Below are positions 14,902 to 60,795 of a DNA stretch of 64,000 nt, piece after piece. Source of the DNA: Pectobacterium aroidearum (lineage in GTDB: Bacteria > Pseudomonadota > Gammaproteobacteria > Enterobacterales > Enterobacteriaceae); assembly GCF_015689195.1 (NCBI RefSeq), contig NZ_CP065044.1, positions 3,410,001 to 3,474,000 of the forward strand, read 5' to 3'. Made by a program: the position numbers and the translations under genes. The notes beneath the pieces were generated by a model that saw nothing but the letters and a program-made list of their open reading frames with translations, was not told the origin of the DNA and did no database searches. Each line of letters begins with the position of its first letter. The stretch's first letter is position 1.

Positions 14902-14984
14902 ATTCATTATCTCCCATTGCATTTAACCCTCTCGGAGATATAACTACAGGGGTCATCAAGGGTTTTGCCCTTATACGGCATAAA

Positions 14985-15221
14985 AAATTATGCTGAGGAG
15001 ATAGCAGGCTTAGGATGAGCCGCAGGACGCGGCGAAAGCTTGCGCCACGTCGGGAACGTGTCGCAAGCGGTCCGTTAAGCCTGATACCGACGAAGGCACC
15101 GCGTCAGCGGCATAATTTAGCCGTAAAGCCAGGGGTCAAGGGGCGAGCGGCGTTTGAGCCGTCCCTTGTCGGGCGCGTGCTACGGGGTAGCATGGAAATG
15201 ACGGCATTATCGCGCACGAAA
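14985..15221 (+). repeat. Structured intergenic repeat, copy 1 (plus orientation)
   Basis: A 237-nt element matches 17270-17507 on the opposite strand. Shared blocks are AAAAATTATGCTGAGG at the left end, GCGGCATAATTTA in the middle, TCGGGCGCGTGCT, and GCGCACGAAA at the right end. Between them the primary sequence differs but pairing is kept. Helix AAATTATGC/GCATAATTT closes 14985-15118. Inside are 15005-15012/15076-15083, 15019-15023/15029-15033 and 15038-15044/15062-15068 with 15046-15050/15056-15060. Further right are 15137-15142/15163-15168 and 15178-15183/15187-15192. It is probably a member of a dispersed, folded intergenic repeat family. Whether it acts as DNA or RNA is unknown. Confidence 0.8.
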
Positions 15222-15223
15222 CC

Positions 15224-15259
15224 GTCTCTTAGTCTTCATAAAAAATGTGACTAAGAGAC
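15224..15259. terminator. 11-bp hairpin downstream of iolD, possible terminator
   Basis: GTCTCTTAGTC (15224-15234) and GACTAAGAGAC (15249-15259) form a perfect 11-bp stem with a 14-nt loop, 20 bases past the iolD stop. There is no U-run after the stem on either strand, so intrinsic termination is uncertain. It abuts repeat copy 1 but has no counterpart beside copy 2. Confidence 0.4.
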
Positions 15260-15279
15260 AGTGACGCAGGGAAATTTAC

Positions 15280-17211
15280 CTAATATTGCCGTGCGCGGGA
15301 GAGCGCAGCTTTCACGTTACTGGCAGCCGTCTCAATCTCCGGATTATCCGCAACCTGCGCCGTGCCAGTGCGCCACCAGGATTCATAGCCGTGCGTCATG
15401 GTCTTCGGCAGCACTTTGATATCCAGCAGCACCGGTCCTGTATGCTGGCGTGATTCCACCAGCGCCTGTCTGAGCGAGGTTTCATCATGCACTCGCCACG
15501 CTTTACAGCCGTAGCTTTCAGCGTTCTTGGCGAAATCGACCGGAATAAGTGCACCGCGCAGTTGCCCCGATTCCGCATCGCGGTAGCGGTTTTCCGTACA
15601 GAAGCTCCCCATTCCCTGACTCATTTGCAGGTTGTTGATACAGCCAAAGCCCGCGTTGTCGAACAGCAGCACGGTGATTTTGATGCCCTCTTGCACCGCC
15701 GTTTGCAGTTCGGTGTGGAGCATCAGATAAGAACCGTCACCAACCATCGCGTAGACGGGCTGTTGCGGCACCGCAAGCCGCGCGCCAATTGCCGCCGCAA
15801 TCTCGTACCCCATGCAGGAGTAACCATATTCCAGATGATAGCTGTCCGGCGTTTTTACCTGCCACACGCGCTGTAGATCGCCCGGTAACGACCCTGCCGC
15901 GCCAACGACAACCGCGTTATCCTCCAGTTCATCATTCAGGATCCCCAGTACGCGCGTTTGCGTCAGGTGGGTATTCAACGTCTGGCGATATTCATCCAGC
16001 TTGTCTTCCAGACCATCCACCACTTCAGGCACCAGTTCACCTTTATCCTGCACGGTAAACAGCCGCTGTAGCTCGCGTTCCCATTCCGCACGCGCCTGTT
16101 CAATAGCCTGCTGCCAGCCGCTACGATAGGACGCCGTCGCCAGCCGTTCGGCCAGTGCTTGTAGCCCGACGCGCGCGTCGGCGATCAGGGGCAGCGCATC
16201 CAGTTTTAGCGCATCAAATTCGGCAACGTTGAGCAGTAAAAATTCGACGTTCGGGTTCTGAAACAGCGACTTGGAACCGGTGGTAAAATCGGTTAAACGC
16301 GTCCCGACGCCAATCACCAGATCCGCTTCTTGCGCCAGCCGATTCGCCGCCAGCCCGCCTGTCACGCCAATACCACCGCAGTTCAGCGGATGTGAGGAAA
16401 CAATCGCACCTTTGCCCGCCTGCGTTTCGCCAAACGGAATCGCAAACTGCTCGGCAAACTGCGCCAGCGCATCATGTGCGCCGGAATAACGAACGCCACC
16501 GCCGCAAATCAGCATCGGGCGGCGCTTTCTGGCAATCAGCGCTGCCGCTTCCTCCAGCCGTGCCGCATCTGGCGGGCGACGTTCGAGGTGATGGACGCGC
16601 TTGCGGAAGAACGATGCCGGATAATCCCAGACTTCCGCCTGCACATCCTGCGGTAAACACAGCGTTACCGCGCCGGTATCGGCCGGATCGGTCAGCACGC
16701 GCATGGCGTTAATCAGCGCGCTCATCAGTTGCTCAGGGCGATTAATGCGATCCCAGTAGCGAGAAACCGGTTTAAAGCAGTCATTGGTGCTGATCGACAG
16801 ATCGTGATATTGCTCGACCTGCTGCAACACCGGATCCGGCTGGCGGCAGGCGAAGAGATCGCCGGGCAACAGCAGCACCGGAATACGGTTGGCGGTCGCG
16901 GTCGCCGCGGCGGTCACCATATTTGCCGCCCCCGGCCCCACCGACGAGGTCACGGCATAAATTTTCCGCCGCTTGTGCTGTTTGGCGAACCCAACGGCGA
17001 TGTGCGCCATTCCTTGTTCGTTGCACCCCTGATGCACAGTGAGGCGGTTCGCCTCCTGCTCCAGCGCCTGACCGATGCCCAGCACATTACCGTGACCAAA
17101 AATGGTCATGACGCCCTGCACAAAAGGGGATTCTTCACCGTCTACGCTGATGTATTGCTGGTTGAGAAAACGGACCAGCGCTTGCGCCATGGTGATGCGA
17201 CACGTATCCAT
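15280..17211 (-). CDS. iolD: 3D-(3,5/4)-trihydroxycyclohexane-1,2-dione acylhydrolase
   Basis: This 643-residue thiamine diphosphate enzyme hydrolytically opens the cyclohexanedione ring to 5-deoxy-D-glucuronate. It has the usual three domains. An N-terminal domain has [17 protein letters not shown], whose Glu activates TPP. A central domain lies at about 215-360. The C-terminal pyrophosphate-binding domain has [11 protein letters not shown] and the metal-ligand Asn in FDNAGFG. ATG 17211 follows AAGGAGTAGATCA. Its neighbours are iolA upstream and iolG downstream, but intergenic repeats isolate it on both sides, so it may not be co-transcribed smoothly with either. Confidence 0.95.
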
Positions 17212-17566
17212 TGATCTACTCCTTAAATAAGGATCTGATTTCTATAATGAACTATGTATATTCAGCGAGCATTTCGTGCGCAAAAATTTAGCCATTCTTA
17301 TGCTACGTTGCAGCACGCGCCCGACTCAGGGCGCTCAATCGCCGCCGCCCTGAGAACCCAGGCTTATGGCGATAAATTATGCCGCTACGCGGGCCCTTCG
17401 GTATGTGTCACCGTCATCCGAACCGCCAGTGACGCGGTCCTCCGCGGCACTGGCTTTCGCGACATCCCTGTCGCTCTTTCGGCGGTGCACCTACCTCAGC
17501 ATAATTTTTGACGCCAGCAGAGCAAAACCGGTGCACTATTTTCACCACACGTTATAGGTCAAATCC
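17212..17566. other. 355-bp gap between iolA and iolD
   Basis: Almost all of this gap is repeat copy 2 (17270-17507, minus orientation), leaving about 58 bases before iolD that contain its ribosome-binding site and about 59 bases after the iolA stop. The reading frames seen inside (17254-17511, 17366-17557) are by-products of the repeat and are not called as genes. Confidence 0.7.
17270..17507 (-). repeat. Structured intergenic repeat, copy 2 (minus orientation)
   Basis: The copy lies between iolA and iolD and is inverted relative to copy 1. Its closing helix AAATTATGC/GCATAATTT spans 17374-17507, which is 134 nt exactly as in copy 1. The inner helices use different bases: 17409-17413/17483-17487 with 17418-17422/17478-17482, 17459-17464/17469-17474, 17425-17431/17448-17454 with 17433-17437/17442-17446, 17325-17333/17346-17354 and the hairpin 17301-17315. 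Compensatory changes relative to copy 1 in nearly every helix indicate that the fold, not the sequence, is conserved. On this strand it would be transcribed in any iolA-iolD read-through RNA. Confidence 0.8.
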
Positions 17567-60718: not shown

Positions 60719-60758
60719 TTTTGCACCATCATCAACCGTTAAATATTCTGCATCAGAC

Positions 60759-60795
60759 ACGCTACCGCCCTTGGCTTATAGCAACCAATGCGCTG
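60759..60795 (-). promoter_or_regulatory. JUMPstart sequence with ops element
   Basis: The minus strand over these 37 bases matches the JUMPstart consensus found upstream of enterobacterial polysaccharide operons. Its end is the ops core GGCGGTAGCGT at 60769-60759. ops recruits the antiterminator RfaH to the paused polymerase and allows transcription of very long operons. It lies 41 bases before the wecA-like ATG and would serve the 22-kb minus-strand locus. Confidence 0.92.

Follow-up and report, generated by a model that had tools for sequence, protein, structure and literature searches.

The 64,000-nucleotide (nt) stretch of Pectobacterium aroidearum DNA analyzed here (NCBI RefSeq assembly GCF_015689195.1, contig NZ_CP065044.1, positions 3,410,001 to 3,474,000 of the forward strand; hereinafter the window) contains a coding sequence at 15280..17211 on the minus strand, which, following an earlier note on this DNA, we take to be iolD, and two inverted copies of a structured repeat that bracket it. 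Both copies are present as that note had claimed. The core of copy 1 (14976..15222, plus strand) lies downstream of iolD, opposite to the direction of the iol genes, and scores 238.8 bits against our covariance model of the repeat (R1; 247 positions, 61 pairs). The core of copy 2 (17271..17516, minus strand) lies between iolA and iolD on the gene strand and scores 241.3 bits, the limits of both cores being read by alignment to other copies. They are 71% identical over query positions 2-262 of 301 (blastn). These copies belong to a real and large family of structured interspersed repeats, and at least two IS110-family elements target this family.

In single-sequence folding both copies out-fold their dinucleotide shuffles (z of -2.42 and -3.44), and the helix pairs quoted in the earlier note are found in the sequence. 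The closing helix that it gave as AAATTATGC/GCATAATTT is real: in copy 1 it closes domain 1 (14986..15117, plus strand) with arms at 14986-14992 and 15111-15117, corresponding to columns 11-17 and 140-146 of a 21-copy alignment described below (A2), in which 100% of its cells are paired and four of its seven pairs show changes on both sides. Within this domain are hairpin 1 (15019..15033), which has an AYGGAY-type loop and in relatives harbors an IS1111-type element in that loop near 15024-15028, and hairpin 2 (15038..15068), the loop of which is extended in some copies by a domain of about 75 nt. They are followed on the same strand by hairpin 3 (15137..15168), in which relatives carry an IS110-group element at the equivalent of 15157/15158, a 3′ terminal helix (15169..15219) with arms at 15169-15176 (TCGGGCGC) and 15212-15219 (GCGCACGA), and, at the right edge of copy 1, an outer hairpin with the terminal repeat TGTGACTAAGAGACAG (15222..15261). 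An inverted form of this terminal repeat, CTGTCTCTTAGTCACA, opens some other copies.

Copy number, covariation and distribution

Copy 1 has 42 blastn matches at E ≤ 1 in its own chromosome (4,995,896 bp), and of the 41 that R1 recovers there at E ≤ 1, 39 also pass E ≤ 1e-5 and 25 score more than 200 bits. Some of these R1 rows are halves of interrupted copies; by covariance model, the chromosome holds about 40 copies or pieces. Alignment A2 comprises 20 of the 42 blastn matches, including copy 1, together with copy 2, after setting aside 21 rows that were fragments, copies interrupted by insertion sequences (ISs) or rows without a fetched locus. Its consensus has 61 pairs in eight helices, of which 37 show both-side changes (RNAalifold), with at least one such pair per helix. 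Pairing extends to 96.9% of 1274 cells as against 85.4% in shuffles, pairs with double changes number 37 as against 21.7, and the covariation score is 0.403 as against 0.178, none of 500 shuffles being as high in any of the three measures. Sliding the partners by 1-3 columns reduces pairing to 26-47%, and the covariation score with slid partners is 0.03-0.11. Further pair types are less clearly set apart from shuffles (65 vs 60.0, with 23 of 500 as high). Thus, the covariation that the earlier note saw between two copies is upheld across 21, and its proposal of selection on a folded form is supported by the many copies and the strong covariation. Neither of the outcomes that the note had named as refuting, a lack of other copies or a lack of covarying pairs, was obtained.

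The same holds at greater distance: an alignment of 37 R1 matches, fitted to that model and drawn from 20 stretches of 16 genomes of other genera (A3), shows both-side change in at least one sequence at 59 of 61 pairs (0/500 shuffles as high). With respect to the strand, A2 has 56 G-U cells as opposed to six A-C cells, or 37 as opposed to six when the U-G pair of columns 42/97 (19 cells) is removed; for the latter comparison the binomial P is 1.6e-6, with cells that are not independent. A3 likewise has 54 G-U and 22 A-C cells, alongside 157 other mismatches. Because G-U exceeds A-C, the fold under selection appears to be that of one strand. As G-U cells are rare (4.4% of those in A2), the folding molecule could be either RNA or single-stranded DNA.

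Among genomes of the same genus, a core of the repeat (L020) is matched by blastn in 24 of 24, the own genome included, and the repeat is also present in a genome of the same species (G166); only one of 35 other genomes gives a weak match. Across the family, with each genome from another genus and the own genome included, R1 finds a match at E ≤ 0.01 in at least 42 of 119 genomes, a lower bound given the strict filters and the few candidates scored per genome. In the class, 12 of 273 other genomes have a match at E ≤ 0.001, several of them partial. Neither the 20,395 E. coli records nor the 72,556 PLSDB plasmids searched contain a blastn match to the L020 core. In other genera copies occur head-to-head (L063, L064, L065, L066 and L071) and in arrays of alternating strand, with six matches in L137 (4445-6071) and five in L140 (4221-5770). 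The arrays may be likened to giant versions of bacterial interspersed mosaic elements (BIMEs); none is seen among the listed R1 matches of the own genome. The head-to-head pairs of L063, L064 and L071, which come from two genera and have their copies 97-100 nt apart, resemble one another across each half and the spacer, as though the whole pair had been inherited as a unit. Reading the open reading frames (ORFs) at nine of 11 loci, with no family search, revealed no obvious autonomous partner gene shared by the distant copies.

IS110-family elements in the hairpin loops

Repeat copies are split at two fixed places, and these interruptions define two insertion sequences, IS_A and IS_B, the proteins of which match PF01548, PF02371 and NF033542 (IS110 family RNA-guided transposase). 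IS_A has a long 5′ noncoding end, the layout of the IS110 group, and is represented by 10 elements in five of 25 genomes (L123 and L125 being counted as one). Nine of the 10 sit in hairpin 3: to their left, the aligned repeat sequence stops at A2 column 189 in eight cases and 183 in L124, and to their right it resumes at column 188 in six, 191 in L124 and 199 in L115 and L121. L119, which is IS_A at 72% identity, is inserted elsewhere. At the eight loci checked, seven of them in the repeat, the junction strings have CT at either end (L123/L125 and L124 were left out of the junction and guide tests). IS_B has a long 3′ noncoding end, the IS1111 layout, with nine elements in four genomes. Six of these interrupt the repeat within the hairpin 1 loop, at columns 53/54 (57 for one edge of L114), and the other three (L108, L109 and L112) lie in a repeat that by eye resembles the printed YPAL/RU-2; in all nine the left flank ends in CADGGAY. 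One locus (L010) carries both IS_A and IS_B within a single repeat copy.

We compared the noncoding ends of these elements with their targets for guide-like matches. For IS_A, L118 (genome G018) has a left match of 11 nt and a right match of 7 nt, and L121 (G011) has 9 nt on either side, the joint chance being 0/2000 shuffles for each; their right matches fall at the same place in the 5′ noncoding end. L117 matches 11 nt on the left and just 5 nt, elsewhere, on the right (joint chance 1/2000 shuffles). Since L117 and L121 represent a single element with one noncoding end, two independent sequences carry the IS_A result; by variant, it is significant in G011 and G018 and weak in G000, G002 and G006. 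The noncoding end of L119 has a 7 nt match to that element's own target near the homologous place (P 0.18). For IS_B, compared by sequence alone without a shuffle control and with L111 left out, the 3′ noncoding end holds, around position 115, a sequence complementary to 7-9 nt of the right half of the target in L106, L110, L113 and L114; in L108, this sequence differs in step with the target (9 nt). No right-half complement was found in L107, L109 and L112. IS1111 elements with seekRNAs have already been described (PMC11187229).

Accordingly, we posit that IS110-family elements land in the apical loops at sites that would be chosen by their bridge RNA, and that these loops may serve as landing pads because the repeat is abundant and dispensable. 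The insertion sites are observed directly, the guide matches come from two variants, and the mechanism is borrowed from published IS110 biology.

Relationship to known RNAs and repeats

A search of the whole window against Rfam at gathering score returned only a JUMPstart RNA, and around iolD nothing related appeared even at E ≤ 5, the window copies having no match to RF01731 (TwoAYGGAY). That model does, on the other hand, match the repeat in five of six loci from other genera at E ≤ 0.5, two of which (L067 at 47.2 and L069 at 46.7 bits) exceed its gathering score of 43 bits. Across the 119 family genomes RF01731 is matched in 17, nine of them above the cut-off, with none in the own genome and none in 14 control genomes. 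Where it matches R1-family copies in other genera, RF01731 covers domain 1 on the same strand, that is, a closing helix and two hairpins with AYGGAY-type loops. It is multicopy in G074 and G026, in which at least 13 of its 21 rows fall inside an R1 match on the same strand. The Pectobacterium repeat differs in adding hairpin 3 and the terminal helix, and its copies in the own genome lack the pair of AYGGAY terminal loops: of 21 copies, hairpin 1 has an exact AYGGAY in 11, A-GGAC (one base fewer) in eight and AGGGAT/AGGGAA in two, and hairpin 2 has AYGGAY in none, CGGGAR in 11, AGGGAA in five and others in five. Among 37 distant copies, ANGGAY is found in both hairpins in nine and in at least one in 35. 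Hence, the window copies seem to form a diverged branch of the TwoAYGGAY kind that lies outside the Rfam threshold, kin rather than member. TwoAYGGAY itself is described as a probable RNA that is not cis-regulatory, found in gut samples, gammaproteobacteria and Clostridiales (Weinberg 2010, PMC2864571).

Several families of enterobacterial repeats offer further comparisons. ERIC/RU-1, with a consensus of 127 bp, appears to differ from the Pectobacterium repeat in length and sequence. YPAL/RU-2, an interspersed repeat known from Yersinia and Erwinia carotovora and about 168 nt long, is predicted to have moved recently (PMC2229807). The RU-2 sequence printed in PMC2759123 folds in our hands into a long stem that encloses two hairpins with the tips AAGGAT and ATGGAT, a likeness in fold between repeats that differ in length and sequence. 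The YPAL/RU-2-like repeat at L109 and L112 matches Ysr224 and AaHKsRNA22 in Rfam, all below their cut-offs, and has no TwoAYGGAY match at E ≤ 1. BIMEs are alternating arrays of structured extragenic repeats (PMC2817692), and repetitive extragenic palindromic (REP) sequences are reported (PMC1525189 and PMC11208160) as targets of the IS110-family elements IS621, ISPa11, ISPpu9 and ISPpu10. The Pectobacterium repeat shares with these its extragenic location, structure, alternating arrays (L137 and L140) and targeting by IS110-family elements; it differs in being a multibranched unit of about 250 nt rather than a palindrome of 20-40 bp.

Thus, on the question of novelty raised in the earlier note, the absence of an Rfam match stands for the window copies themselves and is qualified by relatives that match TwoAYGGAY. 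In the open-licence literature, searched by titles and the starts of abstracts, we recognized no paper on this repeat family or on a link between TwoAYGGAY and mobile repeats. As far as that literature shows, the repeat family, the TwoAYGGAY link and the double landing pad for IS110-family elements are new.

Turnover, gene context and mode of spread

The iolD locus was read in 25 genomes of the genus. Downstream of iolD (site 1), the repeat is present in 23 of 25, in plus orientation in 10 and minus in 13, and the remaining two (L091 and L099) have other sequence there. The same-species genome G166 has a minus-oriented copy of another subfamily at this site, and in a tree of 52 cores the site-1 copies are spread over several subfamilies. 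Between iolA and iolD (site 2), 12 genomes have a repeat of the copy-2 type, four another subfamily, one (L088) a remnant and eight a repeat-free spacer. The additional domain of about 75 nt in the hairpin 2 loop, which consists of several small hairpins, occurs in L082, L085, L095 and L097 at site 2 and in L090, L093, L103 and L104 at site 1, and its presence differs within one species (L081 vs L082, site 2). The repeat-free site-2 spacers (L089, L092, L093, L096, L098, L099, L101 and L102) were too different to align and yielded no clean element ends. As an observation apart, these spacers are of a common alternative type in which the region around GTTCCC(G/A)CAGGGA resembles a hairpin and may be a structured element of another kind.

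The interpretation given in the earlier note holds in part. Its suggestion of a mobile structured repeat is supported by copy number, by covariation, by orthologous sites at which the repeat is gained, missing or replaced, and by alternating arrays in two of the loci read from other genera. We think that the copies are probably units of an interspersed, non-autonomous, mobile, BIME-like structured repeat of about 250 nt, kin to TwoAYGGAY and colonized by IS110-family elements. On this reading, the repeat would sit behind genes and one of its strands would fold, as indicated by covariation, into the multibranched domain (closing helix, hairpin 1 and hairpin 2), hairpin 3 and the terminal helix. 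Selection would maintain this fold on one strand, in keeping with the excess of G-U over A-C, and the fold would most likely serve the spread or exchange of the repeat itself, acting as RNA or as folded single-stranded DNA.

Several observations weigh against this reading. The turnover at the iol sites could reflect homologous exchange rather than transposition, and 56 G-U in 1274 cells is equally consistent with folding as DNA or as RNA. R1 and RF01731 do not pick out the same set, because three genomes (G063, G075 and G119) match RF01731 alone, without an R1 match. Regarding the guides, in L117 the left half alone is above chance, and the IS_A match is weak in the genome of the window (joint chance 0.06 for L115, 0.06 for L120 and 0.67 for L122), in G002 (0.09) and for L119 (0.16). 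The Y1 transposase domain PF01797 is found in only eight of the 25 same-genus genomes, as compared to the repeat in all 25, and the findings on the terminal motif, the target site and the Tn5-type domain given below point the same way.

The gene context bears on an alternative in which the repeat is a transcribed element, that is, a 3′-untranslated-region or intercistronic RNA acting in processing, stability or attenuation, selected operon by operon and spread in ancient times. Among the 30 best loci of the own genome, with context ORFs picked by length, 14 lie between convergent genes (four of these neighboring an IS110-family gene), 11 are co-directional in sense, five co-directional in antisense and none divergent. 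This placement behind genes agrees with such an element, as do the position of copy 2 in sense between iolA and iolD, the excess of G-U over A-C and the ranking of TwoAYGGAY as a probable RNA (Weinberg 2010). However, the absence of divergent spacers among the 30 is weak evidence because the window itself has few divergent gaps (3/28 of those of at least 60 nt, P 0.03 to 0.05; 3/53 overall, P 0.17 to 0.22), so that an avoidance of divergent spacers is suggestive only. Further, both orientations are found behind genes, orientation and subfamily vary at one orthologous site, and site 2 lacks a copy in eight of 25 genomes. We regard this alternative as unlikely. The copies show no clear bias of replication strand (21 vs 12, P 0.16; a hand count with the origin assumed near coordinate 1).

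The termini bear on a second alternative, a classical miniature inverted-repeat transposable element with terminal inverted repeats CTGTCTCTTA(GT)CACA, moved by a cut-and-paste transposase in trans, for which the structured core would be mere cargo. Several copies have the motif, as CTGTCTCTTAGTCACA or its inverse, at their outer end, and at site 1 the motif on the right is at the same flank whichever way the repeat is oriented. By eye, some minus-oriented site-1 copies carry it at both ends. The motif, which we take to resemble the ends of Tn5, occurs six times in the chromosome at ≤ 1 mismatch, and five of these occurrences adjoin repeat copies by coordinates. Allowing ≤ 3 substitutions in 150-nt flanks, however, it is found beside only seven of the 30 own copies, never on both sides of a copy, and beside one of 34 distant copies; by eye, there is no clean target site duplication at site 1. 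The Tn5-type DNA-binding domain PF14706 is found in 0/25 genomes, which counts against Tn5-like mobilization; the search for a cut-and-paste transposase covered this domain alone. On balance this alternative is distinctly improbable. Mobilization by a RAYT was also tried as a candidate and rejected, PF01797 not being found in 17 of the 25 repeat-bearing genomes.

The inverted copies bracketing iolD had further suggested an invertible cassette, in which recombination between them flips or removes the gene, a proposal we give hardly any credence and which is contradicted at the species level, as the order and orientation of iolA and iolD are the same in 25 of 25 genomes, with iolD neither flipped nor lost, and site 2 is often free of a copy.

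Returning to the mobile repeat, a wider version of that reading, offered tentatively and with the balance of our judgment somewhat against it, is that TwoAYGGAY is the core of an enterobacterial superfamily of mobile multibranched repeats, taking in the present family, the TwoAYGGAY repeats and perhaps YPAL/RU-2, which would be copied by an enzyme that reads the folded strand and against whose hairpin loops IS110 recombinases would have repeatedly evolved guides. If true, TwoAYGGAY, an RNA motif for which no function was known when it was listed in 2010, would gain a setting as interspersed mobile repeats, and the presence in each genome of tens of intergenic spacers with a conserved fold would be explained. 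With their sites in the hairpin loops of one repeat, these naturally occurring IS110 and IS1111 elements would also be useful for studying the reprogramming of bridge RNAs.

Elsewhere in the window, the JUMPstart RNA lies at 60758-60795 on the minus strand, near genes that on reading resemble polysaccharide genes.

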